Positions 44,145 to 61,756 are shown, numbered from the stretch's first letter. The stretch: 64,000 nucleotides of DNA from Ruania alkalisoli (GCF_014960965.1 NZ_CP063169.1:281581-345580), one strand, 5' to 3'. Notes: generated from the letters alone by a model not told the origin. Numbers and translations: made by a program.

Positions 44145-44172
44145 GACAACGTTGTCCCAGCGTTGCGCAACG
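44145..44172. promoter_or_regulatory. LacI-type operators before first surface glycosidase gene
   Basis: GACAACGTTGTC (44145-44156) is a perfect 12-bp palindrome sharing its ACAACGTTGT core with the sites at 56590 and 59764. A second palindrome, CGTTGCGCAACG (44161-44172), follows at once. Both overlap the expected start of transcription. Confidence 0.75.
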
Positions 44173-44202
44173 TCACGAAGAAGTGGCAGAGAGGAGAGTC
44201 CC

Positions 44203-47200
44203 ATGCGGAGGTTTTCCGCGGTCTTTTTACCCAGCGCGCTTGTGCTGGGCGTGCTTGGCCCGGTTTCAGGTGCTGCGGCCGAGTCTGTGGTTGATCCGTT
44301 GGATCTGGGGTTGAGTGGTCCGGATCAGCAGCGGTCGATGAGTTTGCCGGAGTCTCGGTTGGTGTTGAATCCGCAGAACTTCTATTTGCCGGAGTCGGAG
44401 GTTGAGCAGAACACGGGGCCGTCGATGCCGTTGGGTGCGGGGTATTACGCCCATGATGAGGCGGTCACGATGCCTGACTTCTTCGAGTTGTTCGAGGGGG
44501 CTGCTGGGGATCCGCCGGTGTTGGCTGATGATCCGAGTGGGATCGAGGTCGGGTTTGCTGATGAGTTTGATGAGTTTTCGGATGAGTGGGTGCCCGAACC
44601 CGGTCTGGACGTGAGCATCGTTGATGGTGTGGCGCACCTGTCGGTGTTGCCTGATTCGCCGGTTCCGTGGCCTGCGATGGCTCGTGAGGTGACGGTGGAC
44701 ATGGATGTGACGCCGGTGCTGCGGGTGGCGTTGCCGTCGGTGAGTGGGCAGTGGGCGTTGAAGCTCAATGATGGTGCTGATGTGGATATCGAGGTTCAGC
44801 CGGGTTCTTCTGCTGGGGGTGTGCACAGTTTCGACCTGAGCTCGATCACGGGGTGGGGTGGTGAGCAGACGTTCACGATCAAGTTCTTCGCGGTCGGTGG
44901 TGATGCGCAGATCCAGATGGACAGTCTGCGGTTGCAGGGCCAGCAGGCTGGTTTCGTCGACAACTTCACTTCCGAGACGTTGGAGTGGGATGTTGGCGCG
45001 GGTATGGGCGCTGAGGTTGCTGATGGTGCGTTGACGTTGTCGGTGTTGCCGGAGAACCAGTACGGCTATGGCGCGATTCAGCGCGGGGTCGATGTGGATC
45101 TGGATGAGTTCCCGGTGTTGCGGCTGGCGTTGCCGAGCACGTCCGGGGACTGGGCGTTGAAGGTGAGCGCTGGTGGTGGTGCGGATATCGATCTGGAGGC
45201 GGGTTCGAACGAGTCCGGTGTGCATAGCTTTGATGTTGTTGCCGCGACCGGCTGGTCGGGCTCGACATCGTTCACGATCAAGTTGTTCGCTGTTGGTGGT
45301 GGCGCGCAGATCGTGGTGGACAGTGTGCGCTTGGTGAGTGCGGCGCAGGGTCAGCAGTGGGTCCACGGTGCTGATGAGTACGAGAACTTCTGGTCCCCGG
45401 CCTCGCTGGACTTCTCCGCGACCTACCCCGGCGGAACTGTCGTCCAGGGCGCAGACACCATGGTCGGTCACGATGGCATCGTGCGTGAGCTGGAGATTGA
45501 CGAATCGGCCGGTGATGGCCAGGTGCTCCGCGTGGGTGGATCCTTCGTCGGGTCGGTGAGCGTTGACGCACAGGCGGGCGTGCTCACCGTGGTCGGCGAC
45601 CACATGCGGTATGCGATCGCGATGCCGGGTCTGGATGAGGTGTTCTTCTTCGAGTCTCGTGACGAGATGCTCGCCGGGGGTCCCGCATCGAGTGAACCCA
45701 CGTCCCGGATGGGCGTCTGGGTGGCTGCTGTTGATCCGGGCGCTTCGTCGGTGCGGATCGGCGCTGGGTTCTCCGTCGACGATATGGCGGAGGCAGTGAC
45801 TCGTGCGCAGGAGGCGGCGAGTACGCCGGTGGCTGACGCTCGTCAAGAACTCGTTGACTTCTGGGCCGAGGCGTTGGCTGGGGTGCCGCACCCGGATGAC
45901 TTCGACCTGCGCGCGTTGCCCGAGGACGGGGGCGTGAGCGCACAGGAGGTGCGCAGTGCGTATTACCGGGCGTTCGTGGCGTTGTATTCCAACGTGTTGC
46001 CGCCTCAGCCCGAGACTGGGTTCGCCTATCGCACGGTGGCGACCGGTAAGCCCTCGATGTGGAATCACGGGGCGGACGGGGCGCGATCGGCGGCGGCGTG
46101 GGAGAGCTTCATCGGCGTCCAGTTCCTGGCCTATATCGACCCGGAAGCGGCGTGGGACTCCTACAACGGCTTGATGTCCTTGGTCGATGCTGAGGGAACG
46201 TTGGGTGGGGAGAGTTTGCCCAGCCGCAAGGCTCAGGCCGCGTGGGTGCTGTATGCGATGACCGGGGACGAGAACGAGTTGGCGACCAGCTACGACTCGC
46301 TGATCCGGTTGCTGCAGTGGCAGGCCGAGAACCCCCGCTGGGTCTACGGCGCCTACGACCACCCCGGCGAGCGGGATGCTGAGTTCGTCACCTCGCTGAT
46401 CGTGGACGTCGACTTCGGTATCCAGATCGCTGAGGTCCTGGGCCACACCGAGGACATCACCATGCTGGCGGACCTGCGCGCGGAGCTCCTCACCGGATAC
46501 GAAGACCACTACTGGGACACGCCGACTCAGAGCCCACCGCGGCAGTACTACTTCCCCGGTGACCCGAGCTGCGGTCCTCGCGGCGGGTGTTACGGCAACC
46601 TCTTCCAGACCGCTATGGCACTGCATGTGGACGGTTTGGACGACGAGCGAATCGGCGCACTGAAGGCGTTCGTGGACGCGTCCTACGATCCGGACGAGCA
46701 GTTCGCCGGCTTCGCCGACGTGAAGTACACCAACATGTCGTACACGCTGTATGGGCTGCTGGAGAACGGTGAGGCCGGGCAGGCGGAGACCTTGGTCAAT
46801 GCTGTACTGCGAGAGATCATCAGCAGCGGGTCCTTCGCGGAGGCCTACAACCCGTCGCCGGAGGGCGCGATCCCGGTGGGGGTGCGGCCGTCGATCTTCG
46901 GCCTGGCAGCGGTGATCGACTCGGTCTGGATCAACAATGGATACCGGATGGATCTGGGTACACCGCATGCGGTCGTGACTCCTGAGGTCGACGGTGCCGT
47001 GCAGGGCATTGCCTATCGAGGTCAGGAGCTGAACGTAGCTGCGGATGCTGCTGCTCAGGAAGTGGTCTTCTCCGGTAGCGCTGTCGCGTCGACCGAGGGA
47101 TGCAACACCATCACCGGAGTCGCAATCGGCTCCACCGTCCCCCTTCCCACCGAATGCGAGGGTGGTACCGATCCGGACCCGACCGACCCGACGGACCCGG

Positions 47201-47670
47201 ATCCGTCCGATCCTGGAACCGGGCCCGAGCCCGCTTCGGAGGAAGACTTGACCGACGACACTCGCGGCGAGGTGAACGTGCCCGCCACGGCTCATCGGGG
47301 CGAGACGATCGAGGTCGGTGTCCCGAGCGCGGCCGGCGAGCGCGTCCATGTCTGGCTGCAGTCGGACCCGACGCTGCTGGTCTCGGGAACGGTGTCTGCC
47401 GGCGGGACGATCAGCGTCACCATCGCGGCCGATGCCAGCCTCGGCGACCACAAGGTCGTCGTTCAGGCCAACGATGGGTCACTGATCGGCTGGGCACCGC
47501 TGGAGATCGTCGAGGTGCCGACCACTGGCGGGGACGGCACCAGCGATCACGACGGGCTGGCCGACACCGGAGCCGGTGGTGTGCACCTTGCCCTGGTGGC
47601 ACTGAGCGCGCTGCTGCTCGGTGGCCTGGTGCTGGTCGTCCGGCACCGAACGGTCATCGCTCGCAACTGA
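44203..47670 (+). CDS. cell-wall-anchored putative glycosidase, copy 1
   Basis: A 1,155-residue exported protein. GAGAGGAGAG precedes the ATG. A signal peptide ends near SGAAAE. Two beta-sandwich repeats at about 117-246 and 250-380 look like carbohydrate-binding modules (each has WALKLN or WALKVS and FTIKxFAVGG motifs). A further beta domain leads to an (alpha/alpha)6-type region at about 548-920 (FAYRTVATGKPSMWNHGADG, SRKAQAAWVLYAMTGDENEL), similar in style to six-hairpin glycosidases such as GH63/GH37 relatives. An Ig-like domain at about 1020-1105 is absent from copy 2. The end is LADTG (1119-1123), a helix and RHRTVIARN: a class E sortase signal. Enzyme activity is inferred. Confidence 0.78.
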   Translation: MRRFSAVFLPSALVLGVLGPVSGAAAESVVDPLDLGLSGPDQQRSMSLPESRLVLNPQNFYLPESEVEQNTGPSMPLGAGYYAHDEAVTMPDFFELFEGAAGDPPVLADDPSGIEVGFADEFDEFSDEWVPEPGLDVSIVDGVAHLSVLPDSPVPWPAMAREVTVDMDVTPVLRVALPSVSGQWALKLNDGADVDIEVQPGSSAGGVHSFDLSSITGWGGEQTFTIKFFAVGGDAQIQMDSLRLQGQQAGFVDNFTSETLEWDVGAGMGAEVADGALTLSVLPENQYGYGAIQRGVDVDLDEFPVLRLALPSTSGDWALKVSAGGGADIDLEAGSNESGVHSFDVVAATGWSGSTSFTIKLFAVGGGAQIVVDSVRLVSAAQGQQWVHGADEYENFWSPASLDFSATYPGGTVVQGADTMVGHDGIVRELEIDESAGDGQVLRVGGSFVGSVSVDAQAGVLTVVGDHMRYAIAMPGLDEVFFFESRDEMLAGGPASSEPTSRMGVWVAAVDPGASSVRIGAGFSVDDMAEAVTRAQEAASTPVADARQELVDFWAEALAGVPHPDDFDLRALPEDGGVSAQEVRSAYYRAFVALYSNVLPPQPETGFAYRTVATGKPSMWNHGADGARSAAAWESFIGVQFLAYIDPEAAWDSYNGLMSLVDAEGTLGGESLPSRKAQAAWVLYAMTGDENELATSYDSLIRLLQWQAENPRWVYGAYDHPGERDAEFVTSLIVDVDFGIQIAEVLGHTEDITMLADLRAELLTGYEDHYWDTPTQSPPRQYYFPGDPSCGPRGGCYGNLFQTAMALHVDGLDDERIGALKAFVDASYDPDEQFAGFADVKYTNMSYTLYGLLENGEAGQAETLVNAVLREIISSGSFAEAYNPSPEGAIPVGVRPSIFGLAAVIDSVWINNGYRMDLGTPHAVVTPEVDGAVQGIAYRGQELNVAADAAAQEVVFSGSAVASTEGCNTITGVAIGSTVPLPTECEGGTDPDPTDPTDPDPSDPGTGPEPASEEDLTDDTRGEVNVPATAHRGETIEVGVPSAAGERVHVWLQSDPTLLVSGTVSAGGTISVTIAADASLGDHKVVVQANDGSLIGWAPLEIVEVPTTGGDGTSDHDGLADTGAGGVHLALVALSALLLGGLVLVVRHRTVIARN
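44260..45467 (+). repeat. long direct repeat, left copy (pairs with 47875-49082)
   Basis: This 1.2-kb block matches 47875-49082 at a constant offset of 3,615 bp. I found two base differences: G/T at 44851 (Gly to Trp) and a silent T/C near 45231. It encodes the mature N-terminus and both CBM-like domains. Confidence 0.9.
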
Positions 47671-47675
47671 GCAGT

Positions 47676-47755
47676 TCCGGCGTCGATCCGACCCTCCTGG
47701 CCGGATCGACGCCGGAGCACGTGCTGCTCACGGGCTTGCCCTGCGGGCAAGCCCG
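47676..47755 (+). terminator. two strong hairpins between the surface glycosidase genes
   Basis: The first hairpin has 15-bp perfect arms (47676-47690 with 47702-47716) and an 11-nt loop. The second has 11-bp arms (47731-47741 with 47745-47755) and a 3-nt loop. Neither has a T tract. They lie in the 141-bp gap and may end or stabilise the first transcript. Confidence 0.7.
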
Positions 47756-47811
47756 CTGTCGTTCCCATCGTTGGTCGAGCCACGCTGTTGTGGCAGGAGG
47801 GAGAGTTCCTG

Positions 47812-50800
47812 ATGCGGAGACTCTCTGCAGTGTTGATGCCTGGGGTGCTTGTGGTGGGGGTGGTGGTTGCGGGGCCGGTTTCAGGTGCTGCGGCCGAGTC
47901 TGTGGTTGATCCGTTGGATCTGGGGTTGAGTGGTCCGGATCAGCAGCGGTCGATGAGTTTGCCGGAGTCTCGGTTGGTGTTGAATCCGCAGAACTTCTAT
48001 TTGCCGGAGTCGGAGGTTGAGCAGAACACGGGGCCGTCGATGCCGTTGGGTGCGGGGTATTACGCCCATGATGAGGCGGTCACGATGCCTGACTTCTTCG
48101 AGTTGTTCGAGGGGGCTGCTGGGGATCCGCCGGTGTTGGCTGATGATCCGAGTGGGATCGAGGTCGGGTTTGCTGATGAGTTTGATGAGTTTTCGGATGA
48201 GTGGGTGCCCGAACCCGGTCTGGACGTGAGCATCGTTGATGGTGTGGCGCACCTGTCGGTGTTGCCTGATTCGCCGGTTCCGTGGCCTGCGATGGCTCGT
48301 GAGGTGACGGTGGACATGGATGTGACGCCGGTGCTGCGGGTGGCGTTGCCGTCGGTGAGTGGGCAGTGGGCGTTGAAGCTCAATGATGGTGCTGATGTGG
48401 ATATCGAGGTTCAGCCGGGTTCTTCTGCTGGGGGTGTGCACAGTTTCGACCTGAGCTCGATCACGTGGTGGGGTGGTGAGCAGACGTTCACGATCAAGTT
48501 CTTCGCGGTCGGTGGTGATGCGCAGATCCAGATGGACAGTCTGCGGTTGCAGGGCCAGCAGGCTGGTTTCGTCGACAACTTCACTTCCGAGACGTTGGAG
48601 TGGGATGTTGGCGCGGGTATGGGCGCTGAGGTTGCTGATGGTGCGTTGACGTTGTCGGTGTTGCCGGAGAACCAGTACGGCTATGGCGCGATTCAGCGCG
48701 GGGTCGATGTGGATCTGGATGAGTTCCCGGTGTTGCGGCTGGCGTTGCCGAGCACGTCCGGGGACTGGGCGTTGAAGGTGAGCGCTGGTGGTGGTGCGGA
48801 TATCGATCTGGAGGCGGGTTCGAACGAGTCCGGTGTGCATAGCTTCGATGTTGTTGCCGCGACCGGCTGGTCGGGCTCGACATCGTTCACGATCAAGTTG
48901 TTCGCTGTTGGTGGTGGCGCGCAGATCGTGGTGGACAGTGTGCGCTTGGTGAGTGCGGCGCAGGGTCAGCAGTGGGTCCACGGTGCTGATGAGTACGAGA
49001 ACTTCTGGTCCCCGGCCTCGCTGGACTTCTCCGCGACCTACCCCGGCGGAACTGTCGTCCAGGGCGCAGACACCATGGTCGGCTTGGACTCGATGGTGCG
49101 TGAGATCACGATCGAACAGGCTTCTGCTGAGGGAGACGTGCTGCGGGTAGCCGGTAGCTTCGTCGGGGCTGTCGACGTCGATACGGGTGCCGGTGTGATC
49201 ACTGTCGAGGACGAGAACGTCAGCTATGCGGTCGCGCTTCCTGGACTCGGGGACGTGTCCTTCTTCGAATCGCTCGAAGAGTTCGAGGTCGGTGGGCCTG
49301 CGTCGACTGAGCCGACGTCCCGGATGGGTGTCTGGGCGGCATCGGTGCCGGCATCGGCCGCGCAGGTGCGCATCGGTGCGGGCTTCTCCGTCGATGACAC
49401 CGAGGAGGCGGTGGCACGCGCGGTGGAGGCCGCCGGGACTTCTGCGGCGGATGCTCGCGCGGACCTGGTCGAGTTCTGGGCCGAGGCGTTGGCTGGGGTG
49501 CCGCACCCGGATGACTTCTCCCTACTGGGAGTGTCTGACGATCGCGGACTCACCGATGAGCAGGTCCGCAGTGCGTACTACCGGGCGTTCGTGGCGTTGT
49601 ATTCCAACGTGTTGCCGCCTCAGCCCGAGACTGGGTTCGCCTATCGCACGGTGGCGACCGGTAAGCCCTCGATGTGGAACCACGGGGCCGACGGGGCACG
49701 ATCGGCGGCGGCGTGGGAGAGCTTCATCGGCGTCCAGTTCCTGGCCTATATCGACCCGGAAGCGGCGTGGGACTCCTACAACGGCTTGATGTCCTTGGTC
49801 GATGCTGAGGGAACGTTGGGTGGGGAGAGTTTGCCCAGCCGCAAGGCTCAGGCCGCGTGGGTGCTGTATGCGATGACCGGGGACGAGAACGAGTTGGCGA
49901 CCAGCTACGACTCGCTGATCCGGTTGCTGCAGTGGCAGGCCGAGAACCCCCGCTGGATTTACGGCGCCTACGACCACCCCGGCGAGCGAGACTCCGAGTT
50001 CGTCACCTCGTTGATCGTGGATGTCGATTACGGCATCCAGATCGCCGAGGTCCTGGGCCACACCGAGGACATCACCATGCTGGCGGACCTGCGCGCGGAG
50101 CTCCTCACCGGATACCAGGAGGATTTCTGGGAGTCCCCTGATGAGCTCCCGGCGCGGTGGTACATCCCGGGCGACCCCGAGTGCGACGTCCTCGGAGCAT
50201 GCTTTGGCGACGAGTTGCACGATCTCCAGACGCTGAGTTCGATGCACCTGGAGGGACTCGACGACGAACGACACGCGACCCTCGAGTCGTTCTTCGACTC
50301 GGTCTACCGGCCGGACGAGCAGCTCGCCGGCTTCGCCGGCGTGAAGTACACGAGCCTGTCATTCACCGCGTACGCGCTGTTCGATCACGGTCGGGCGCAG
50401 GCGGCGCAGACGCTCACCAGCACCCTGCTGCGCGACATCGTCGCCAGCGGGTCCTTCGCAGAGGCCTACAACCCGTCCGAATCCGGCCCCGTCCCGATGG
50501 GCGTGCGCCCCTCGATCTTCGGCCTGGCTTCCGTCATCGACGCCGTCTGGCTCAACAACGGGTACCGGATGGACCTGGGAGAGCCCCACGCCTTGCTAGC
50601 TCCAGGAGTCGAGGGTGGCCTGACCGGCATTGCCTATCGTGGCCTGGAGCTGAATGTGGCTGCTGATGCCGCGGCTCAGGAAGTGGTCTTCTCCGATAGC
50701 GCTGTTGCGTCGACCGAGGGATGCAACACCATCACCGGAGTCGCGATCGGCTCCACCATCGCCCTTCCCGCCGAGTGTGAGGGTGGCACCGATCCCGACC

Positions 50801-51036
50801 CGACGGATCCAACCGACCCGACGGACCCGGGCACGACAGATCCCGGTGCTGGGCCTGACTCGGAGGAAAGCGTGTCCGAGACGCCCACCCTCGGTGGGGA
50901 CAGCACCGGCGGCCGCGACGGACTGGCCGACACTGGAGCCGGGGTGCTGCCGCTTGCGCTGGCGGCGCTGTGCGCCCTGCTTCTCGGCGGGCTGGTCCTG
51001 CTTGCTCGTCACCAAGTGGTGACCGCTCGCAGCTGA
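47812..51036 (+). CDS. cell-wall-anchored putative glycosidase, copy 2
   Basis: A 1,074-residue tandem paralog of copy 1, with GGAGGGAGAG before the ATG. The signal peptide differs, but residues from SGAAAESVVDP through both CBM-like domains are nearly identical. The middle beta domain is diverged without length change, then the first part of the (alpha/alpha)6 domain is again almost identical (DNA 49571-50115 with 45956-46500). The later catalytic part differs, and the Ig-like domain is missing. LADTG lies at 1038-1042, then a helix and RHQVVTARS. No operator like that of copy 1 precedes it, so it may depend on read-through. Different specificity in the diverged half is likely. Confidence 0.78.
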   Translation: MRRLSAVLMPGVLVVGVVVAGPVSGAAAESVVDPLDLGLSGPDQQRSMSLPESRLVLNPQNFYLPESEVEQNTGPSMPLGAGYYAHDEAVTMPDFFELFEGAAGDPPVLADDPSGIEVGFADEFDEFSDEWVPEPGLDVSIVDGVAHLSVLPDSPVPWPAMAREVTVDMDVTPVLRVALPSVSGQWALKLNDGADVDIEVQPGSSAGGVHSFDLSSITWWGGEQTFTIKFFAVGGDAQIQMDSLRLQGQQAGFVDNFTSETLEWDVGAGMGAEVADGALTLSVLPENQYGYGAIQRGVDVDLDEFPVLRLALPSTSGDWALKVSAGGGADIDLEAGSNESGVHSFDVVAATGWSGSTSFTIKLFAVGGGAQIVVDSVRLVSAAQGQQWVHGADEYENFWSPASLDFSATYPGGTVVQGADTMVGLDSMVREITIEQASAEGDVLRVAGSFVGAVDVDTGAGVITVEDENVSYAVALPGLGDVSFFESLEEFEVGGPASTEPTSRMGVWAASVPASAAQVRIGAGFSVDDTEEAVARAVEAAGTSAADARADLVEFWAEALAGVPHPDDFSLLGVSDDRGLTDEQVRSAYYRAFVALYSNVLPPQPETGFAYRTVATGKPSMWNHGADGARSAAAWESFIGVQFLAYIDPEAAWDSYNGLMSLVDAEGTLGGESLPSRKAQAAWVLYAMTGDENELATSYDSLIRLLQWQAENPRWIYGAYDHPGERDSEFVTSLIVDVDYGIQIAEVLGHTEDITMLADLRAELLTGYQEDFWESPDELPARWYIPGDPECDVLGACFGDELHDLQTLSSMHLEGLDDERHATLESFFDSVYRPDEQLAGFAGVKYTSLSFTAYALFDHGRAQAAQTLTSTLLRDIVASGSFAEAYNPSESGPVPMGVRPSIFGLASVIDAVWLNNGYRMDLGEPHALLAPGVEGGLTGIAYRGLELNVAADAAAQEVVFSDSAVASTEGCNTITGVAIGSTIALPAECEGGTDPDPTDPTDPTDPGTTDPGAGPDSEESVSETPTLGGDSTGGRDGLADTGAGVLPLALAALCALLLGGLVLLARHQVVTARS
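47875..49082 (+). repeat. long direct repeat, right copy (pairs with 44260-45467)
   Basis: The partner of the block at 44260-45467; the sequence departs abruptly after TGGTCGG at 49082 while the offset stays at 3,615 bp, so divergence beyond it is by substitution. Confidence 0.9.
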
Positions 51037-51040
51037 GCAC

Positions 51041-51084
51041 GTTCCGGCGTCGATCCGGCCCCACCGCGGGACCGTCGCCGGAAC
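51041..51084. terminator. hairpin between convergent genes
   Basis: GTTCCGGCG (51041-51049) pairs with CGCCGGAAC (51076-51084), with a GC-rich inner part that can fold further. It lies between the rightward glycosidase gene and the leftward esterase operon and can serve both strands. It resembles the hairpin at 47676. Confidence 0.6.
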
Positions 51085-51114
51085 TGTGTCTGCACGCCCC
51101 TCAGGCGGTGGTTA

Positions 51115-52086
51115 TCACAGGCGGCTGCGCAACCACTTCACCTGGCGTACCCAATGGGTGGTGCCGCCGCCTTCGTGGCCGTTGTATGGGTAGACCGCCA
51201 TCTCCTTGTCCGCGCTCTCCAGCTGGTGGTAGGCGGCAAAGACGGTCGACGGCATCGAGATGTCATCCATCAAGGCGACCGACATCAGGACCGGAGCCCG
51301 CACCGAGGAGGCGAAGGAGACGCCGTCGAGATAGGACAGCGTGCGCAGCACCTGGGGGGTGGAGTCGCGGTGAACGGACAGATACTGACGGAGTTCGCCG
51401 GCAGCGTCGGCTGAGGCCAGTTGCAGGTAGCGCTCGAGATGGCACAGGAAGGGCACATCGGGCAACGCGGCGCGGACCAGTGTGGACAACCCGGCCGCTG
51501 CGAGCGCGACCCCACCGCCTTGGCTCGTGCCGGTGACGGCGATCCGCGCGGGGTTGACGACGTCCAGTTGCGCAGCCGCCTCGACGAGCAGGACGGCGTC
51601 GGTGTAGAGCCGCCGGTAGTAGCTCGTTGTCGGATCGTCGATCCCGCGGGAGAGGAAGCCACCCGCTGCCGGGCGGCTGCCATGGGGATCGGGTGTGGCG
51701 CCGGGGCCGCCGTTCGGCCACGCGCTGCCCTGTCCTCGCGTGTCCATGACCAGATGGGCAAAGCCGCTGGCGGCCCAGCCCAGCCGGTCGCCGGCCCATC
51801 CGCGCCCGCCCCCGTAGCCGATGAACTCGACCACTGTGGGGAATGGGCCCGGCCCGCTCGGGTGCAGCAGCCATGCCTTGATCGGGTCGCCGCCGAAACC
51901 CGAGAACGTCACGTCCCATGCCGCCAGCTCGGTGAGAGGAGTCTCAGCCCGGGACACCACGGTCTGCCGCGCCAGTGCTCGCGACTCCTGCAGCGTCGAG
52001 GACCAGAACTGGTCGAAGTCGGCGGGCCGGGAAACCTGGGGACGGTAGGACCAGAGCTCATCCAGCGTCAGATCGGTCTGGGGCAT
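51115..52086 (-). CDS. CE7 acetylxylan esterase / cephalosporin C deacetylase family
   Basis: A 323-residue alpha/beta hydrolase of the AXE1 family. The N-terminal segment (ELWSYRPQVSRPADFDQFWS) is characteristic. The catalytic Ser is in VTGTSQGGGVALAAAG, the Asp in VALMDDISMPSTVFA, and the His in NGHEGGGTTHW; RGQGS is also conserved. CE7 enzymes remove acetyl groups from short sugar chains in the cytoplasm. No signal peptide is seen. It is the last gene of the operon, 12 bp after the GH38 gene, so it may deacetylate imported acetylated mannosides. Confidence 0.9.
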   Translation of the reverse strand: MPQTDLTLDELWSYRPQVSRPADFDQFWSSTLQESRALARQTVVSRAETPLTELAAWDVTFSGFGGDPIKAWLLHPSGPGPFPTVVEFIGYGGGRGWAGDRLGWAASGFAHLVMDTRGQGSAWPNGGPGATPDPHGSRPAAGGFLSRGIDDPTTSYYRRLYTDAVLLVEAAAQLDVVNPARIAVTGTSQGGGVALAAAGLSTLVRAALPDVPFLCHLERYLQLASADAAGELRQYLSVHRDSTPQVLRTLSYLDGVSFASSVRAPVLMSVALMDDISMPSTVFAAYHQLESADKEMAVYPYNGHEGGGTTHWVRQVKWLRSRL

Positions 52087-52098: not shown

Positions 52099-54471
52099 CT
52101 AACTGTTCACACGGAAGGTCTCCGGGCCCGCCCCGAGGGCGCAGGCACGCTCCAGCGCGTCGGTGGCACCCATCTCGCCCCAGGCAACATGAAACCGGAA
52201 CTCGTGGAAGCCGCTGACGTCGGCCCGGAAGTTCGTCTCCCACGTCGTGTTCAGGGCCCATGCGGCAACCTCGCGCTGATTCGCCTGCTGGTCCGGGCCG
52301 TCGTTCAATCGGATCGCTCGGTGGTCGATACCACCGAGAGAGATTAACGGTGTGTCCGGAGTGGCGACGGCGACCGCGTAACCGCCGGCCTCCTGCACGA
52401 AACCTCGCTGGAGGAGCAGGTAGTCCTGCAACGTGCCGTGGATCTGATCGATCGCCGGGCGTAGCAGCGCGCCGGTCTTCTCGACCCACAGCGTCCCGGC
52501 GCCGTCCGGCCCGAACGGCAGGGGGAGGAGGAGGTTCTCGGCCTCCCAGCTGCCCGCGGCGCGACATCTGACCGAGACGTTCAGCAGCGGTTCGATCATC
52601 GAGCACTCGAGCTCGACCCGGACGTGCTCGAAGCCGGGCAGGCTCAGCTGTAGCTCGGCTCTGGTGGCAATCGGACCGCGGGAGGTCACCCTAGCGGCGG
52701 TGACCTTGGCACTGGTGACCGCCGCCTGGGCAGGAGTCCTGTTCCTCCCGGACGCCATCCGGGGGCCGACGGGGTCGGAGCCGCTCTGCCATCGCGAGTG
52801 CACAGCGGCGAACGGCGCCTGGCCCGTGCCCCGCAGAATGCTGCGACCGGTGGCGAGGTCGACCACCTCGGCGATCCCACGATGCGGGTCGAGCACGATG
52901 CGGGTTCGCGCTCCCTCCAGGACGTGCTCGTCAGTGTCCTCAGCGCCATTCGTGCTGACGTCGGCGACACGGTCCACCCCGGCGATCTGGCCGCTGTGTG
53001 CCGGCTCTTCACGCACCTCCACGACCGTGTCGTAGCCCGGGGGCATCTCGAGCTCGACGAGCAACTCGACCCCTCGCGGCACCGGGCGGCTCTGACAACG
53101 CAGGGCTCTGCCCTCGTGGTAGGCGACCGGCTCCGTGCCCAGGCGCGTGAAGAGCCAGTCATCGATGTGCAGGCGTAGCACTGACAGTGTCGATGCCGAT
53201 GTGTTGACCGCTCGGTAGCGCAACGGCTCGTTCTTCGAGGGCAGGAACGTCTCCCCACCAGCAGCGCGCGCCCGGGTCAGCGCAGCAGTCGCAGCCGCAT
53301 GGGCCTGTGCCGCTACCGAGGTCTTCGCGACGTCCTGTGCGACGACGTCGGTCAGCCAGGGCATCAGCACCGAGTGGGAGTGACCCCACGTGTGCTCGGC
53401 GTAGATCGCGAGCTGTTGTTGCGCATCGTCGACGTCGGCGAAGATGTCCGCGCCGGTGATGGCGGCCAGGGCCTGGGATCGTTCGAGGCGGCGCTGGGCG
53501 TCGCGAGCGACCCGGAGCTCGCGAGGCGTCGAGGCGACGCCGTCCGCCCACCAGTCCGTCCAGTCGCCGCGCTCGGTGGGGATGTCGCCAAACGCCGGCT
53601 CGTCCCGGAGTGCGTCGAAGAATTCATCGGCGGTGGACAGGCGAACCTGTACGCCGTCCGGATGCCGTTCGTTCCAGTCTCGGACGGCGTCGACGAGTGC
53701 AACATCGGGGGGAGCGTTGTCGGAGGCGGCACCCGAGATCAACGCCGGAACTACGGAATACGGGTAGTCGCGTTCGGCGAGTCCGTCGAGGTAGTCCGCC
53801 ATGCGATCCCGGCGCATCTGCGCCGACGCGGATGCGCCGTGTCCGTCGTAGGCGTCTCTGATCGTGTAGCTCATCGCCCCGCGGGGGCAGAACCCGAGAT
53901 CGTTGCCGAGTTGGTAGTGCGGTGCGACCCAGGCGAGCACCCGGCCACCCGTCGGTCCCTCCCACCAGAATGCGCGCTGGTCACGGCCGCCCGGCGCGAG
54001 TCCGTGGTGAGCGTGAATGCTCGAGAACAGGTGCTGCACGCCGTGCCGGGCCAGGATGTCGGCATATCCCCAGGAGTAGCCGTTGATGTCGGCCGTCAGC
54101 GCGGTACGCAGCGGTTGAGCGTGAGCGGCGAACCAGTCGGTGGCGCGGGCCGTGACCGAGTCCAGCGTGACGGCGTCGATCACCTCCGTCAGGTTGAGGT
54201 AGCTGGCCGACCCGCCGACCTGACCCGACCGGAGCAGTGCGGCTAGCTCGTCGACCTGCTCGCTGCCGGCAGTCGCGAGAAACTGCTCCAACTGCCAGAA
54301 GTTCTCCATCTGCCAGCGATAAGTCGGCGTCGACCGGCACGCCCGGACCACCTCGCGCAGAAAGTCCGCGTGAGCACGAGCCACCTCGGCACGAGGGGAG
54401 GTGTAGCCCAGGTCAGTGTGCGAGTGCGGGATCAGGTGGACCGTGAGTGGGCGCGCGGTCGAACGCATCAT
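52099..54471 (-). CDS. GH38-type alpha-mannosidase
   Basis: A 790-residue enzyme. The N-terminal GH38 domain opens with VHLIPHSHTDLGYTSPRAEV, holding zinc ligands His and Asp. A candidate nucleophile Asp is in LTADINGYSWGYADILARHG. A helical segment and beta-rich C-terminal domains follow to the end, as in the family. GH38 enzymes release alpha-linked mannose with retention. No signal peptide, so it acts on imported oligosaccharide. AAAGG lies 6 nt before the ATG. It is third in the leftward operon. The match to characterised catabolic GH38 enzymes is partial, so linkage specificity is open. Confidence 0.82.
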   Translation of the reverse strand: MMRSTARPLTVHLIPHSHTDLGYTSPRAEVARAHADFLREVVRACRSTPTYRWQMENFWQLEQFLATAGSEQVDELAALLRSGQVGGSASYLNLTEVIDAVTLDSVTARATDWFAAHAQPLRTALTADINGYSWGYADILARHGVQHLFSSIHAHHGLAPGGRDQRAFWWEGPTGGRVLAWVAPHYQLGNDLGFCPRGAMSYTIRDAYDGHGASASAQMRRDRMADYLDGLAERDYPYSVVPALISGAASDNAPPDVALVDAVRDWNERHPDGVQVRLSTADEFFDALRDEPAFGDIPTERGDWTDWWADGVASTPRELRVARDAQRRLERSQALAAITGADIFADVDDAQQQLAIYAEHTWGHSHSVLMPWLTDVVAQDVAKTSVAAQAHAAATAALTRARAAGGETFLPSKNEPLRYRAVNTSASTLSVLRLHIDDWLFTRLGTEPVAYHEGRALRCQSRPVPRGVELLVELEMPPGYDTVVEVREEPAHSGQIAGVDRVADVSTNGAEDTDEHVLEGARTRIVLDPHRGIAEVVDLATGRSILRGTGQAPFAAVHSRWQSGSDPVGPRMASGRNRTPAQAAVTSAKVTAARVTSRGPIATRAELQLSLPGFEHVRVELECSMIEPLLNVSVRCRAAGSWEAENLLLPLPFGPDGAGTLWVEKTGALLRPAIDQIHGTLQDYLLLQRGFVQEAGGYAVAVATPDTPLISLGGIDHRAIRLNDGPDQQANQREVAAWALNTTWETNFRADVSGFHEFRFHVAWGEMGATDALERACALGAGPETFRVNS

Positions 54472-54488: not shown

Positions 54489-55658
54489 TCAGGCGAGGGC
54501 CGGCTCCGCCGCGAGTGAGACGGCCCGGCCCCCTTCATGTGACGCCAGGGCAGCGACTGCCAGCCGGTGCGTGGCTGCCGCTTCCCTGGGGTGCGCGGTC
54601 GCGAACCGGGGCCCGAGTTCGCCGGTACGTTCGGCCAGGAAGCAGGCCCACATCTGCAGGATCGCATCGGAGAAACCGAACTCGAAGATCCCGCCCGTGA
54701 CGGTCGGCCAGGCCGACTGGCTGCCGGCGTCGATCTGCTGCCAGGCCTGCTCGCTGCCACCACCGGAGAGCGGGATCTTTGCGAAGATCTCCACCCGCTT
54801 GGGGTTCTTGGTGCTGAAACGTACGCCACCTTCCATGCCGACCACCTCGAGGAGCCAGGTGTTCTTCTCGCCCGGATCGATCCGCTTGGTCTCCACAGTC
54901 ATCGGGAAGGAGTACTCGCCGGAGTCGACACGGCAGTGCAACACCGCGTTGTCCCACGTGTCGCAGGGAACGGGAACGCCATCCGGCCCGGGTCGTTCGG
55001 TGACGATGTTCTCGAGATCGGCGTAGACCGTACGCGGAGCCCACCCGAGCCGCAGTGGCACGTGCCAGGCGTGCAGACCGAGGTCGTTCATGACCCCCGC
55101 CGCACCGCACGTGGCGACTTGGCGCTTCCAGTTGATGGCCTTGGTCACGTCCAGGTCGCTGGAGTGCAGAAAGGCGCTACGAGCCGAGACGATCCGGCCG
55201 AGCTCCCCCGAGGCGATCATCCGATAGGCGAGCTGGGCACCGGGGAAGTAGGGCATCTCGCTGGAGCAGCGCACGAAGACGCCGGGGTGCTCGGCGCAGG
55301 CGCGCAGGATGCTCTCGGCTGCCGGGGCGTCGATCCCGAACGGCTTCTCGGCCAGAAGGTCCTTCCCGGCAGCGATGACGTCCGTGTATATGGCTTCGTG
55401 CAGGTCGTGCCGGACGGCCACGTAGACGACGTCGATCTCGTCCGAGGCGAGCATCTCGTGATAGTCGGTGGTGAGTTGAGTGACCGTGTCGATCTGCCGG
55501 AACCACTCCAGGGCCTCGGGCCGGATGTCGCAGACCGCGGTCAGGCGCGGTCGCACTGGGTGGTCGATCAACGCCGGCCATCGCCCGAGAGCGGCGGCGA
55601 GCTCGCGCCCCATCAATCCGCCTCCGATGATCCCGATCCGCACATCGACACCGCTCAT
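54489..55658 (-). CDS. Gfo/Idh/MocA family oxidoreductase
   Basis: A 389-residue NAD(P)-dependent enzyme. The Rossmann motif is GIIGGGLMGRELAAAL, the EKPF motif is in LLAEKPFGIDAPAAES, and the C-terminal substrate domain contains GVMNDLGLHAWHVPLRLGW, with the His expected to take part in catalysis. Members oxidise sugars or sugar acids, or perform NAD-dependent glycosidase-like chemistry. Its ATG overlaps the aldolase stop by 4 bp, and a 17-bp gap leads to the GH38 gene. Its substrate is probably a mannose or acidic sugar derivative. Confidence 0.9.
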   Translation of the reverse strand: MSGVDVRIGIIGGGLMGRELAAALGRWPALIDHPVRPRLTAVCDIRPEALEWFRQIDTVTQLTTDYHEMLASDEIDVVYVAVRHDLHEAIYTDVIAAGKDLLAEKPFGIDAPAAESILRACAEHPGVFVRCSSEMPYFPGAQLAYRMIASGELGRIVSARSAFLHSSDLDVTKAINWKRQVATCGAAGVMNDLGLHAWHVPLRLGWAPRTVYADLENIVTERPGPDGVPVPCDTWDNAVLHCRVDSGEYSFPMTVETKRIDPGEKNTWLLEVVGMEGGVRFSTKNPKRVEIFAKIPLSGGGSEQAWQQIDAGSQSAWPTVTGGIFEFGFSDAILQMWACFLAERTGELGPRFATAHPREAAATHRLAVAALASHEGGRAVSLAAEPALA

Positions 55659-56497
55659 CGGGCGTGCTCCTCGATGATCGCCAGCGCCTCGTCGACACTG
55701 GCATCGGAGTGCACCGTAGCCATCAGTGCCGCCGTGATCCCCGCGGGAGTCCGGTGCTGAATGATGTTGCGCCCGTAGACGATGCCTCGCGCGCCGGCTC
55801 GCAGCACGGCATGGGTGCGCTCCAGCAGTGTCCGGTCATCCACGCGACCGCCGCCGCGCACGAGCACAGGAACCTCACCGGCCACCTCGATCACCCGCTC
55901 GTACTCGGTGATGTCCTCGGACGGGTCGGCCTTGATCAGGTCGGCACCGAGCTCGACCGCCTGCCGAACGAGTGTGGTAATCCGGTCGATATCGCCGTCC
56001 ACCATGTAGCCTCCGGCGGTCGCGTTGTCCTGCATGACCAGTGGTTCGATCATCAGCGGCATACCGAACCGAGTGGCTTCCTCTCGCAGCGCCATGATCG
56101 ACCGGATGTTGGCCTCACGGATCTCCGGGCGGCCGGGCAGCTGCATCAGGTTGACGCACACCGCCACGGCGTCAAGGCGGACCGCGACCTCGATCGCGTT
56201 CGGGACGTGATGGCTGAACAGGTGCTCGTCCAGCGGGTTGCCGTACACGTTCGCGACATCGGTGCGCATCACCAGCGCCGGTTTGTCCCGTTTCGGGATG
56301 CGCTGCAGCAGTGGGGCCTGCCCCATGGTCAGCTGAACGGCGTCGGGAGCCGCGTCCACCAGAGTTTCCACGGTTGCTGGCATGTCGGTGATTCCGGCCA
56401 GGAATGAGGGTTCACCGAAGAAGCCGTGGTCTACGGCCACGTCGAGCGCGCGGCCGGAAGTCGGATGAAACAGCCGGTTGAGGCGATAGGCAGTCAC
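55655..56497 (-). CDS. class I aldolase family protein (LsrF/FBA-like)
   Basis: A 280-residue TIM-barrel protein. Markers: RALDVAVDHGFFGEPSFLAG at the N-terminus, ADLIKADPSEDITEYERVI with the candidate Schiff-base Lys, and VLVRGGGRVDDRTLLERTH with the phosphate loop, then GIVYGRNIIQ. This is the DhnA/LsrF fold, which cleaves phosphorylated ketose-like sugars. The GTG at 56497 is used because AAGGA lies 6 nt upstream and the longer frame would cover the operator. It is the first gene of the leftward operon and divergent from the kinase-isomerase fusion. Confidence 0.85.
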   Translation of the reverse strand: MTAYRLNRLFHPTSGRALDVAVDHGFFGEPSFLAGITDMPATVETLVDAAPDAVQLTMGQAPLLQRIPKRDKPALVMRTDVANVYGNPLDEHLFSHHVPNAIEVAVRLDAVAVCVNLMQLPGRPEIREANIRSIMALREEATRFGMPLMIEPLVMQDNATAGGYMVDGDIDRITTLVRQAVELGADLIKADPSEDITEYERVIEVAGEVPVLVRGGGRVDDRTLLERTHAVLRAGARGIVYGRNIIQHRTPAGITAALMATVHSDASVDEALAIIEEHAR

Positions 56498-56589
56498 GTG
56501 CGGTCCTTGTCCGTCGTCGGGGGATCGCGGCTGAACGCCACGATGTCGATAGGTGCGATATGGCCAGCCGTGTGCCAGAGTAGTGCTGC

Positions 56590-56603
56590 GAAACAACGTT
56601 GTC
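56590..56603. promoter_or_regulatory. LacI-type operator between aldolase and kinase-isomerase genes
   Basis: GAAACAACGTTGTC has the core palindrome ACAACGTTGT (56593-56602) shared with 44145 and 59764. It lies in the divergent gap of about 130 bp and could control both the leftward and rightward units. Confidence 0.75.
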
Positions 56604-56626
56604 TACCTGAACAAAGGAACCGCAGC

Positions 56627-58618
56627 ATGCGCAGAGTTGCCGTCGCTGGGCACGTGTGCCTCGACCTTGTCCCCCGGCAGTTACCGCATGGCGGGCTGGC
56701 GCCAGGATCGCTCGTCGAGGTCGGACCGATCGAGGTCTCACTCGGAGGAAGCGTCGCCAATGCTGCCCGAACGTTGCAGCATCTCGGGCACCCGGTGCGC
56801 GCATGTGCCGTCGTCGGAGATGACGACCTCGCCGATGTGCTGCGCAGGCGGATGGTCGGTCCGCTGCTGCAGGCTGATCTCGTTCAGGTGCCGTCGACGA
56901 CCTCGTACAGTCTTGTGCTCGAGCCTGGCGGGCAGGACCGGGCGTTCTGGCACCACGTGGGCGCCAACGCCGCGTTCGGCGCAGGTGCACTGGACCTCTC
57001 TGGCATCGATCTGCTGCACCTCGGCTACCCGTCATTACTGCCCGGGCTGGTCGTCGACGATGGTGAGCCGCTGCTTGCGCTGCTGCGCGACGCCCGGCAG
57101 CAGGGCGTGACGACCTCGGTCGACTTCGCCGTTGTGAGTCCGGCGGATCGCGCGAGCGGGCCCGACTGGGAGCGCCTGCTCCCGGCCCTGGCGGCCGAGT
57201 GTGATGTGCTCTCCCCCAGTTTGGCCGACTTGCGGTCGATCCTGCCCGACGGCGAACAACTGGCATCGTCCTTTGCGAAGCGGTTGGTGGAGTGGGGGGC
57301 GGGTGTGGTCGCCGTCTCCGACGGCGAGAACGGCCTGACGCTACGGGCCGGCGATCGTGCGCGCCTGCGCGCAGGTGGCGCCGCCCTTGCGCCGCTGGCC
57401 GATGCCTGGGCTAGCACATCGCTGCACCAGCGGGCCGTGCCCGTTGATCGAGTGGTGACCACGAATGGTGCCGGTGATGCTGTGAGTGCTGCGCTGCTCT
57501 ACGCACTCTCCGTCGAACTGGACCCCTCCAGGGCAGCGGCGCTGATGGCCGCCGTTGCGGCGGCGGTCGTCTCCGGCCAGGATCCGGGAGCGGATGCCAT
57601 CGCTCAGCTGTGCCCGGAGCTGGCGGCGCTGGGCGCGATCGAGATCACGGCCAACCAACCGCCGGCCCGGTTCTATCGCGGGGGTGCACAGATTGCAGGC
57701 TTCCGCGGCCAGGCGCACGCGGACGACTACACCCCGGAGGACTGGGTGGCCTCGACCGTGGAGGTCCGTGGCGACGAGCCGACCGGTCTCACTCGCCTTC
57801 CGGACGGGACGATCCTGCGCGAGGCCATCGCGGCGCAACCGGAACACTGGCTGGGTGCGGAGCACGTGGCCCGCTTCGGTGAGGACACGAAGCTGCTGGT
57901 GAAGCTTCTCGACGCCGGGCAGCGCCTGCCGGTCCATGCCCATCCCGACGGCGCGTTCGCCCGACGGGAGGTCGGCACTGCTCACGGCAAGGCGGAGGCC
58001 TGGTACATCCTGACCCCCGGCACCGTGCATCTCGGCCTGCGTGAGCCGGTCCGCCAGGAGGAGATGGCTGACCTCGTCGCGCGCCAGGACGCCGAGACCA
58101 TGCTCGGCCTCCTGCACGAGATTGCGGTGCAGCCGGGCGACTGCGTCTACGTTCCTCCCGGCGTGCTGCACGCGATCGGGGAGGGGATCCTTCTGGTGGA
58201 GGTGCAGGAGCCAGAAGATCTGTCCATCTTGCTGGAATGGCGGGACTTCGATCTGGACGGTGCCGCACACGGCCACCTGGGTCTAGGTTTCGATCGCGCC
58301 CTGGAAGCGGTCGACCTGACGGCAATGACGACCGACCGCCTCGGCGAACTCGTCATGGCCCCAGCCGGAGGTGCGTGCCTGCCCGAGGAAGCCGAGCACT
58401 ACTTCCGGCTCGAGGTGATCTCGGTCGCCGGGGTGACGGACTTGCCCACCGGGTACTGCATCGTCGTGGGTCTGGAGGGGGACGTACAGATCGGCGGAAC
58501 CGGTGGGACGCCCACGTCGGTGGCCGGTGGAAGGTCGGCATTGGTGCCGGCCTACGTTGCAGCGCCCTGGCTGGCCGGCACCGGTCGCGTGGTCGTGCTG
58601 CGTCCACCGCCGCCGTGA
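56627..58618 (+). CDS. PfkB-type sugar kinase fused to class I phosphomannose isomerase
   Basis: A 663-residue fusion. Residues 1-295 are a ribokinase/fructokinase-type kinase with VSLGGSVANAARTLQHLG near the N-terminus and the anion hole/catalytic motif TTNGAGDAVSAALLYAL at about 277-293. From about 338 on, a mannose-6-phosphate isomerase follows: LPVHAHPDGAFAR (zinc His pair, near 435), GKAEAWYILTPG (Glu), VPPGVLHAIGEGILLVEVQE (His). Together they could turn free mannose into fructose 6-phosphate. AAAGGAA precedes the ATG at 56627. The operator at 56590 lies just upstream. Confidence 0.9.
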   Translation: MRRVAVAGHVCLDLVPRQLPHGGLAPGSLVEVGPIEVSLGGSVANAARTLQHLGHPVRACAVVGDDDLADVLRRRMVGPLLQADLVQVPSTTSYSLVLEPGGQDRAFWHHVGANAAFGAGALDLSGIDLLHLGYPSLLPGLVVDDGEPLLALLRDARQQGVTTSVDFAVVSPADRASGPDWERLLPALAAECDVLSPSLADLRSILPDGEQLASSFAKRLVEWGAGVVAVSDGENGLTLRAGDRARLRAGGAALAPLADAWASTSLHQRAVPVDRVVTTNGAGDAVSAALLYALSVELDPSRAAALMAAVAAAVVSGQDPGADAIAQLCPELAALGAIEITANQPPARFYRGGAQIAGFRGQAHADDYTPEDWVASTVEVRGDEPTGLTRLPDGTILREAIAAQPEHWLGAEHVARFGEDTKLLVKLLDAGQRLPVHAHPDGAFARREVGTAHGKAEAWYILTPGTVHLGLREPVRQEEMADLVARQDAETMLGLLHEIAVQPGDCVYVPPGVLHAIGEGILLVEVQEPEDLSILLEWRDFDLDGAAHGHLGLGFDRALEAVDLTAMTTDRLGELVMAPAGGACLPEEAEHYFRLEVISVAGVTDLPTGYCIVVGLEGDVQIGGTGGTPTSVAGGRSALVPAYVAAPWLAGTGRVVVLRPPPP

Positions 58619-58702: not shown

Positions 58703-59701
58703 ATGGATCGTGGCCCCACGATGATCGACGTGGCCGAAGCGGCGTCTGTGTCTTTGAAGACCGTCTCGCGGTACGTCAACGGCGCCACGAACATCAATCC
58801 GGAATTGGCCGAGCGCATCCGCGAGGCGGTCCAAACGCTCGGTTACCGGCGCAATCTTGCAGCTGCCAGCATCCGCCCGGGGTGGACCAGCAGGATGCTC
58901 GGGCTGATCATCGGTGACCTGGGAAACCCGTACTACTCCACACTGGCGAGAGGAGTCGAGCGGGAGGTGCACGCACGTGGGTACATCCTGACAACGGCCA
59001 GCTCGGATGAAGACGCCACGCGTAACGATGAGCTCGTCGACCGCATGCTCGAGCAGCGGGTGGACGGGTTGATCATCGTGCCTCCGTACACCGGCGGGCG
59101 TTCCTGGGCCGACTTGCCACCCCCGCTGCCGCCACGGGTGCTCGTGGACCGGCCGGCTCCCGAGGGCGGCGGATACACCGTGCTCGCGGATAACGCCGCA
59201 GGTGCGGCGCGCGCGGTCGAGCTGCTCGTGCAGGAGGGTGCCACGCGCATCGCCTTCGTCGGCGACTCCGAACTCATCTCGACCATGGCCGAACGGCGCC
59301 AAGGCTATGAGTCGGCGCTCCAGGCTGCCGGTATCGCTGCTGACCCCGCACTGGTCGACCACGGTGTGCACACCGACGAGCAAGCGGAACAGGCCGTGGA
59401 GCGACTGCTGGCCGACCAAGGTGCCGACGCCGTGTTCGCTGCCAACAACCGCGCGTCGATCGGTGCGCTGCGCGCGTTCCGCGCTCGTGGCGAGCGCGTG
59501 CCGCTCATCGGATTCGACGACTTCGAATCGGCTGAGCTGACGTCGCCGGCCACGACTGTCGTCAGCCATGACATCGCGCGGATGGGTGCGATTGCGGCAC
59601 AGACCTTGCTCACCCTGATCGACGGGGATGAACCCGCCGCACTCACGACCGTGCTGCCCGTCGCCCTGCGTCGGCGAGGTTCGGAGCGGGCGGCCAGGTA
59701 G
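58703..59701 (+). CDS. LacI-family transcriptional regulator of the glycan locus
   Basis: A 332-residue classical LacI/GalR protein. The N-terminal HTH is MIDVAEAASVSLKTVSRYVN, the hinge segment RIREAVQTLGYRRNLAAASI. The sensor domain (LGLIIGDLGNPYYSTLARGV, RVPLIGFDDFESAELTSPAT) binds a sugar-type effector. GAGGAGG precedes the ATG. It sits inside the locus and is the natural reader of the ACAACGTTGT sites at 44145, 56590 and 59764. Effector unknown; a mannose or mannoside derivative is a guess from context. Confidence 0.93.
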   Translation: MDRGPTMIDVAEAASVSLKTVSRYVNGATNINPELAERIREAVQTLGYRRNLAAASIRPGWTSRMLGLIIGDLGNPYYSTLARGVEREVHARGYILTTASSDEDATRNDELVDRMLEQRVDGLIIVPPYTGGRSWADLPPPLPPRVLVDRPAPEGGGYTVLADNAAGAARAVELLVQEGATRIAFVGDSELISTMAERRQGYESALQAAGIAADPALVDHGVHTDEQAEQAVERLLADQGADAVFAANNRASIGALRAFRARGERVPLIGFDDFESAELTSPATTVVSHDIARMGAIAAQTLLTLIDGDEPAALTTVLPVALRRRGSERAAR

Positions 59702-59730: not shown

Positions 59731-59781
59731 TTGTCAAGATGTCGAGAACCGGGTACCGTTCTACGAAACAACGTTGTTTCG
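59731..59781 (+). promoter_or_regulatory. promoter and operator of ABC importer operon
   Basis: TTGTCA (59731-59736) and TACCGT (59754-59759) are 17 bp apart. The perfect 18-bp palindrome CGAAACAACGTTGTTTCG (59764-59781) follows, over the expected transcription start. Another inverted repeat, TTGACATGGTTGTCAA, lies at 59722-59737. Confidence 0.75.
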
Positions 59782-59806
59782 AGAGAGATGGGCGGTAGGT
59801 CTCACC

Positions 59807-60772
59807 GTGTTGATCGAAGCCTCTGCGCGGAAGCCGCGACGGACCAGGAGTCGCCCCCGGTCACGGGCGGTCCGCAGTGACAAGAGCATCCTGATCCTGG
59901 CCGTGCCGGCCCTCGCGTTCTTTGCCGTGTTCAGCTACGGCCCCATGGTCGGTGTGATTGTCGCGTTCAAGGATTTCAGCATCGTTGACGGGATTCTCGG
60001 CAGTCCCTGGAACGGTCTGGAGAACTTCCGCTTCTTCTTCGAATCCGGCAACGCGGCCCGAGTCGTGCGTAACACGCTGATGTTGAACGCACTCTTCATC
60101 GGCGGGACGCTCATCTCCGGCATGGCGCTGGCGATCATGATCAACGAGGTTCGGCTGCGGCTGCTCAAGCGGACTGCCCAGTCCGTGGTGTTCCTCCCGT
60201 ACTTCATCTCCCCGATCGTCATCAGTGTGATGCTGCAGGCGTTCCTGTCCGGCTTCGGTGGCAGTGGCGGGATGGTCAACGGGCTCCTGGACGGCTTCGG
60301 TATCTCACCCGTCTCCTGGTACACCGAGCCCGGTGCGTGGCCGTGGATCCTGACCGTCGTCAAGATCTGGCAGATGGCGGGCTACACGTCGATCATCTAT
60401 TTGGCGGCCATGACCGCGATTCCTACGGATGTCTATGAGGCGGCGGTCCTTGACGGTGCCTCTCGCTGGAAGATCGCGGTGCGCGTCACGATGCCGCTGA
60501 TCCTGCCGGTGACCGTCATCCTGCTGGTCCTGCAGATCGGCCGCATCTTCATGGGTGATTTCGGCACGATCTACGCGATCATCGGCGACAACGGCACCCT
60601 CTTCGAGACCACGGACGTGATCGACACCTTCGTGTTCCGTGCGCTGCGCACCAGTGGCGACCTCGGCATGACGGCGGCCGTCGGTCTCTTCCAGTCCGTC
60701 GTGGGCTTCGTGCTCATTGCGACAACGGCGCTCATCGCACGCCGTATCAGCCGAAAGTCAGGAGGGTTGTGA
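59807..60772 (+). CDS. ABC transporter permease, LplB/MalF type
   Basis: A 321-residue membrane protein. A basic cytoplasmic N-terminus is followed by six helices; FSYGPMVGVIVAFKDFSIVD and IPTDVYEAAVLDGASRWKIA (the EAA loop) identify a CUT1 permease of the LplB subgroup, which imports oligosaccharides. The GTG at 59807 is used because the longer frame would begin inside the operator; GGTAGGT lies upstream. It is the first gene of the importer operon. No ATPase gene is present. Confidence 0.9.
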   Translation: MLIEASARKPRRTRSRPRSRAVRSDKSILILAVPALAFFAVFSYGPMVGVIVAFKDFSIVDGILGSPWNGLENFRFFFESGNAARVVRNTLMLNALFIGGTLISGMALAIMINEVRLRLLKRTAQSVVFLPYFISPIVISVMLQAFLSGFGGSGGMVNGLLDGFGISPVSWYTEPGAWPWILTVVKIWQMAGYTSIIYLAAMTAIPTDVYEAAVLDGASRWKIAVRVTMPLILPVTVILLVLQIGRIFMGDFGTIYAIIGDNGTLFETTDVIDTFVFRALRTSGDLGMTAAVGLFQSVVGFVLIATTALIARRISRKSGGL

Positions 60773-60776
60773 GGTC

Positions 60777-61727: not shown

Positions 61728-61756
61728 TGACGCTTCCCCTACAGATTGGAAGACCC

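Follow-up and report, generated by a model that had tools for sequence, protein, structure and literature searches.

We identified a tandem pair of genes in Ruania alkalisoli, here called P1 and P2, that we consider moderately likely to encode secreted, wall-anchored enzymes related to glycoside hydrolase family GH63, most likely inverting alpha-mannosidases, that are switched together with a mannose operon by a LacI-family repressor. The pair lies in a stretch of 64,000 nucleotides (NZ_CP063169.1:281581-345580, from GCF_014960965.1), hereafter the window, and positions below are counted from its first nucleotide unless another contig is named. For this pair and its surroundings we computed the domain architecture, the fold class, the catalytic motifs, the presence of a class E sortase, an operator-like palindrome and the gene neighbourhood, each of which is described below.

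P1 (44203..47670, plus strand) encodes 1155 amino acids from an ATG start that is supported by the Shine-Dalgarno-like sequence AGAGAGGAGAG. Its paralogue P2 (47812..51036, plus strand) follows 141 bp behind it, also starts with ATG, and encodes 1074 amino acids. Both ORFs are real and intact, and the two proteins are 83% identical across 990 residues. In P1, a first segment of a GH63-like N-domain carrying a motif conserved in the family (QQRSMSLPESR..., 44308..44502) is followed by two CBM-like beta-sandwiches (44545..45342), and then by the rest of the N-domain and an (alpha/alpha)6 barrel (45349..47148) homologous to the region that was modelled in P2. The sandwich pair of P2 (48160..48957) is near-identical to that of P1 and precedes a beta domain and (alpha/alpha)6 barrel (48964..50769; model pLDDT 87.8, pTM 0.87); all of these segments lie on the plus strand. 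Every domain listed in an earlier note on this DNA is thus present, including the two sandwiches per protein, which lie in tandem and share about half of their residues, and the beta domain with its (alpha/alpha)6 region, which is borne out by models of pLDDT 87.8 and 85.5 and by fold matches at Z 22-27. The anatomy needs one correction: rather than simply lying ahead of the catalytic region, the sandwiches sit inside its N-domain.

Two observations argue for this insertion. A fuller AlphaFold model of P2 (949 aa, pLDDT 85.5) aligns to the GH63 enzyme YgjK from residue 1 and over 533 residues, versus 478 for the model that begins behind the sandwiches and so omits the first segment, a gain of about 55. 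In addition, the first part of the N-domain, which contains a conserved QQRW/S-x-S-x-P-x-SR segment, lies upstream of the sandwiches, and relatives carry zero, one or two of them. In an alignment of 31 family members (A2), the stretch between the two N-domain parts measures about 255-312 residues where there are two sandwiches, 134-167 where there is one, and five in the single member with none (L063). Given the gain in alignment to YgjK and the variable length of this stretch, the sandwiches are best described as a module inserted in the N-domain rather than as an N-terminal appendage. A profile of the sandwiches (A3) found no match in the PDB, and we therefore call them CBM-like and name no CBM family.

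Both proteins begin with a hydrophobic N-terminal signal and end with a TDPDPTDP-type stalk, an LADTG motif, a hydrophobic segment and a basic tail. The class E-type LADTG sorting signal is found at 47557..47571 in P1 and at 50923..50937 in P2, both on the plus strand. LAXTG signals are substrates of class E sortases (PMC5148588), and such a sortase is encoded elsewhere in the genome (NF033747, E 1.3e-77). All of the features by which a class E sortase substrate is recognized (a signal peptide, LAXTG, a hydrophobic segment, a basic tail and the sortase itself in the genome) are present. P1 and P2 are accordingly predicted from their sequences to be anchored to the wall by this enzyme, in agreement with the class E signal previously noted in both proteins.

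Searches with P1 and P2 against Pfam and NCBIfam gave no family above threshold, and a phmmer search of P1 against PDB sequences likewise gave no match above threshold. A Glyoxalase_6 domain that appeared in the scan of the two proteins is below its cut-off and at chance level. The fold is more informative. Both the model of the catalytic part of P2 (602 aa, AlphaFold, pLDDT 87.8) and the fuller model have GH63 mannosylglycerate hydrolase as their closest match (Z 26-27, rmsd 2.8, 293-294 residues aligned), with Z 27 for 4wvb and Z 25 over up to 533 residues for YgjK, and both show an (alpha/alpha)6 barrel with a preceding beta N-domain, as in GH63. Mannosylglycerate hydrolase is followed by YgjK, amylo-alpha-1,6-glucosidase, GH94, GH37, GH78 and GH142 at Z 22-26. 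Identity in the structural alignments is 13-14% to YgjK and Thermus MgH and 18-20% to MhGgH. Comparison of the family profile with a GH63 set including YgjK (hhalign) gave a probability of 95.5%, or of 97.5% in global mode, with an E of 1.6e-8 that is the value for this single comparison. The Pfam GH63 domain (PF22422, cut-off 27) is not reached by P1 (15.4 bits) or by the catalytic part of P2 (15.2 bits), and the best relative among the matches listed has 21.2 bits. A common fold by itself proves no function.

The weak Pfam matches raise the question of GH78. The GH78 domain PF17389 (cut-off 24.5) is not reached by P1 (11.1 bits) or P2 (11.4 bits); however, one relative attains 24.7 bits over about 120 residues, and on several members the score of the GH78 domain roughly equals or exceeds that of the GH63 domain. 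Since these matches rival each other, sequence alone cannot choose between the clan neighbours. P1 and P2 might then be GH78-like alpha-L-rhamnosidases or other non-mannose exo-glycosidases, such as arabinosidases of GH142 or GH121 type or enzymes of GH37 type, and it is in keeping with this that Bac_rhamnosid6H turns up more often than any other weak Pfam match (in 13 of 17 and in 19 of 31 members; among the matches listed, one is over the cut-off), that GH78 and GH142 structures match the models at Z 22-24, and that the general base occupies one common place in GH63, GH78 and GH37 (PMC7263609). We regard this reading as quite unlikely. Although GH78 enzymes share the barrel, the base position and the weak 6-hairpin domain match, that match is partial and mostly below cut-off, spanning only about 100-130 residues of barrel helices, and GH63 ranks first in both structure comparisons. 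The gene context is also of mannose type, with PMI, PMM, GH92, GH130 or GH38 genes near family members in several genera, and the neighbouring genes examined included none of a rhamnose pathway.

Membership of GH92 can be set aside. GH92 alpha-mannosidases resemble the family in their two-domain layout of beta-sandwich and barrel and in the kind of locus they occupy, and they are its neighbours in other genera, but P1 and P2 have no match to PF07971 or PF17678, and the family has no profile similarity to three GH92 domains (hhalign 0.2%). The evidence supports placing P1 and P2 in an unassigned family with distant kinship to GH63 (clan GH-G type). The earlier note could not place the catalytic region in a numbered family with confidence; none is indeed assigned, although the region can be placed as a distant GH63-clan relative. 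Its description of wall-anchored putative glycosidases of an unassigned family agrees with the fold, the profile alignment of catalytic motifs, the lack of any family match and the class E sortase, and the strong match to a well-studied family that it named as a counter-argument is absent. The family has no assignment in Pfam or NCBIfam and may have received a recent CAZy number. We found no published description of such a family from actinobacteria in the open-licence literature, although one may still exist.

The candidate catalytic residues can be located by comparison with GH63, in which acid and base roles have been described (PMC7263609, PMC6608630). By hhalign, the Glu of FAEAYNP aligns on the general base Glu727 of YgjK (ENYNP), and the W(D/E)S motif aligns on its Asp324. 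The putative base is E880 in P1 (codon at 46840) and E884 in P2 (50461), and the Glu of the WES motif is E634 in P1 (46102) and E636 in P2 (49717), all on the plus strand. The base Glu is kept in all 30 members that reach this position. The Asp of the WDS motif is replaced by Glu in the genus of the window and is Asp in other genera. The acid of YgjK, Asp501, lies in a long A'-region that is truncated in the P1/P2 family, and the GH63 alignment is consequently gapped where the acid falls. The candidate for the general acid is the conserved Asp of ERDsEF, at or just before the start of the following helix (ERDSEF, versus GRDDAAVF in YgjK): D725 in P1 (46375, plus strand) and D727 in P2 (49990, plus strand). 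Of 31 members, 30 have this Asp; L039 has Asn instead. The invariant or near-invariant motifs of A2 (n=31) are QQRW/S-x-S-x-P-x-SR, PET, W(D/E)S, GESLPSRKAQ, ERDsEF, FAEvY and GVRPSxFG. P1 and P2 both keep the putative acid, base and WES Glu, and the loss of catalytic acids in both copies that had been named as a possible objection is not seen.

Compared with GH63, which comprises mannosylglycerate and glucosylglycerate hydrolases, E. coli YgjK and eukaryotic glucosidase I, the family shares the beta N-domain and (alpha/alpha)6 barrel of its best fold match, the base Glu in an ENYNP-like motif and the substrate-holding WDS/WES motif, and its candidate acid Asp stands at a plausibly equivalent position. 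P1 and P2 differ in that they score below the Pfam cut-off, lack the long A'-region, carry sandwiches in the N-domain and are predicted to be wall-anchored. GH94 phosphorylases resemble the family in their two-domain layout, aligning over 530-590 residues at Z 22-23, which invites the reading that P1 and P2 are surface phosphorylases or non-catalytic glycan-binding proteins. This is highly improbable: in GH94 a phosphate analogue occupies the place of the general-base Glu (PMC7263609), but that Glu is kept in every family member reaching the position, the residues proposed for catalysis persist in five divergent lineages of Rarobacter, and both P1 and P2 are predicted to be extracellular.

A mannose glycan as substrate would suit the neighbouring genes. 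Downstream of P2, on the minus strand, lie an AXE1-type acetyl esterase (51115..52086; PF05448, E 6.7e-95), a GH38-type alpha-mannosidase-like enzyme (52099..54471; PF01074, E 6.2e-25), and a Gfo/Idh/MocA oxidoreductase with a DeoC/LacD-type aldolase (54489..56596), the last two being outside standard mannose routes. On the plus strand, an ORF at 56426..58618, whose true start is probably downstream near 56630, joins a PfkB-type sugar kinase (PF00294, 2.5e-24) to a phosphomannose isomerase (ManA)-like part (TIGR00218 manA 3.4e-11, below its cut-off). It is followed on the same strand by a LacI-family regulator (58703..59701; PF00356, PF13377), and by two ABC sugar permeases with a DUF3502 substrate-binding protein (59774..63295). 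Farther upstream in the window, a tandem glycine riboswitch (43125-43319, minus strand; RF00504, 57 and 44 bits) precedes minus-strand serine dehydratase and GcvT/GcvP genes, a 1658-aa protein with SdrD_B-like domains is encoded at 31133-36109, and a single ORF of 689 aa at 22030-24099 combines sigma-70 regions 2 and 4 with a zinc-finger domain of anti-sigma type, a hydrophobic stretch around residue 375 and Ig-like domains at the C terminus.

An operator-like palindrome, ACAACGTTGT, links P1 and P2 to these genes. Its first copy (44146..44155) lies within GACAACGTTGTC (44145-44156) about 50 bp before P1, the second (56593..56602) between the aldolase operon and the kinase/PMI-like gene, and the third (59768..59777) before the ABC permease operon. 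Three exact copies in 64 kb compare with an expected 0.02, and none of 100 shuffles reached three. Two sister species carry ACAACGTTGT at the same three positions, and gene order and content from the esterase to an MGH1-like gene beyond the window are kept in both. The palindrome is likely read by the LacI-family protein. P2 has no site of its own. The presence of ACAACGTTGT at three promoters ties P1/P2 to the mannose operon, and we consider that the two probably form one regulon. The earlier suggestion that the pair stands beside a complete uptake and catabolic locus is strengthened by this three-species palindrome to a probable shared regulon, but "complete" goes beyond what we observed, since we saw no gene for an ATPase at the ABC locus. 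Another palindrome, CGTTGCGCAACG at 44161, does not exceed chance expectation, and a scan for sigma-70-type promoters over 43900-51300 found none.

Relatives were found only in Micrococcales: in three of eight species of the window's genus, in Rarobacter and its near relatives, and in a few other genera. Class-wide (395 genomes) and phylum-wide (296 genomes) samples contained no member beyond the window genome itself. Each of three better genomes of Rarobacter and near relatives has five paralogues, and in a tree the clade of the window's genus (P1, P2 and P3) stands apart from five Rarobacter lineages. A third paralogue just outside the window (L034:11814-14459) is 41-47% identical, has one sandwich, lacks a signal or LADTG, and is apparently cytoplasmic as judged from these features. 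It adjoins genes for a GH2 enzyme whose nearest relatives are beta-mannosidases (5n6u, E 8e-48) and for the MGH1-like enzyme (L034:14314-15921), which has PF22422, a GH65 C-terminal domain and no PDB relative by sequence; the latter was considered as a closer relative of the family, but hhalign shows no similarity (0.2%). In other genera a secreted partner protein adjoins family members (L083:15145-17931, L085:13490-16024, L086:15940-19716, L149 and L150). These partners are 44-52% identical and consist of an unassigned N-domain of about 550 aa and two F5/8 type C domains; none was found in the window genome.

Mannose genes recur beside these relatives. Family members stand beside GH130, PMM, PMI and PL8 genes in one genome (G1026), beside GH92 and PMI in another (G1028), and beside PMI in a third (G248). 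In G1038, GH92 is near one paralogue and GH130 and PMI are near another. Some relatives, among them those in L087, L147, L148 and L150, are outside any mannose gene cluster. As mannose genes accompany homologues in several genera, the mannose link recurs in independently arranged loci. The leading candidate for the substrate, on our analysis, would be yeast or fungal mannan or mannoprotein. Rarobacter faecitabidus produces a yeast-lytic protease with a mannose-binding domain (PMC1458353), and three Rarobacter genomes contain GH76 genes. GH76 is absent from the window genome, and a full alpha-mannan pathway is therefore not evident there. Instead of yeast mannan or N-glycans, the substrate could be another mannose polymer, such as a xanthan-like gum or an acetylated mannan that bears glucuronate. 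This would suit the AXE1 esterase, the GH38 enzyme and the GH2 beta-mannosidase-like enzyme of the locus, as well as the PL8 lyase that adjoins two family members in G1026 and is closest to chondroitinase AC and then to xanthan lyases. We think this unlikely, because no PL8 was found among the neighbours examined in the window's genus or in Rarobacter, and GH92 occurs near homologues in two genera. GH92 is typical of alpha-mannan and N-glycan loci.

The two genes do not diverge evenly. In each of three species, P1 and P2 DNA is about 98-100% identical over residues ~37-400 and 97-100% identical over residues ~607-700, although orthologues differ by 2-17% in these segments. Over residues ~420-600 and 750-930, in contrast, the paralogues are mostly 54-87% identical and the orthologues of the two closest species mostly 77-100%. 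Identical blocks shared by P1 and P2 measure 591, 379, 258 and 236 nt. Because paralogues exceed orthologues in identity in much the same segments, gene conversion has acted there repeatedly. Conversion covers the sandwiches, the WES motif and the putative acid, and the base-bearing half of the barrel falls in the diverged part. A natural hypothesis is that P1 and P2 have diverged in specificity. A tentative extension, to which we give somewhat less than even credence, is that this new GH63-related family opens alpha-mannan-type glycans for fungus-feeding actinobacteria, with P1 and P2 a two-specificity pair under recurrent conversion that keeps the glycan-binding and proton-donor part identical and leaves the base-bearing half of the barrel divergent.

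In the mechanism that we favor, a LacI-type repressor on ACAACGTTGT would switch the surface enzymes and the operon together, and P1 and P2 would hydrolyze alpha-mannosidic bonds with inversion. Asp727 (P2) or Asp725 (P1) would donate the proton and Glu884 (P2) or Glu880 (P1) would activate the water. The -1 sugar would be held by the Glu of the WES motif, which is Asp in other genera. The CBM-like sandwiches would keep the enzyme attached to a glycan rich in mannose, with mannan or mannoprotein of fungi or yeasts as the first candidate. The products would enter through the DUF3502/ABC transporter, and the third paralogue, apparently in the cytoplasm, would complete their breakdown together with GH38, the kinase, PMI and the GH2 beta-mannosidase-like enzyme. 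Catalysis, inversion, alpha-mannose specificity and the natural substrate are what we infer here, together with the identity and binding of the repressor. Given their apparent co-switching with an operon for mannose uptake and breakdown, P1 and P2 probably start the digestion of mannose-rich glycan at the wall.

Common control of a surface enzyme, a transporter, cytoplasmic exo-enzymes and a regulator is also found in the alpha-mannan loci of Bacteroidetes. However, those loci use outer-membrane SusCD-type uptake, in place of which sortase anchoring and ABC uptake appear here. Among Gram-positive bacteria, the bifidobacterial beta-L-arabinobiosidase HypBA2 (GH121) likewise acts at the surface, has a GH63-like barrel and is accompanied by a cluster for ABC import (PMC7263609), although it differs from P1 and P2 in its substrate, its retaining mechanism and its suggested membrane anchoring through a FIVAR-TM region. 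If our explanation is true, P1 and P2 would add to the glycoside hydrolases a family whose catalytic set is conserved and whose substrate class can be tested, and their locus would be a Gram-positive, sortase-displayed counterpart of mannan utilization loci. The conversion tracts would then mark the half of the barrel that may set specificity. A part for the family in the consumption of fungi is suggested by its five lineages in Rarobacter, some members of which are yeast-lytic.
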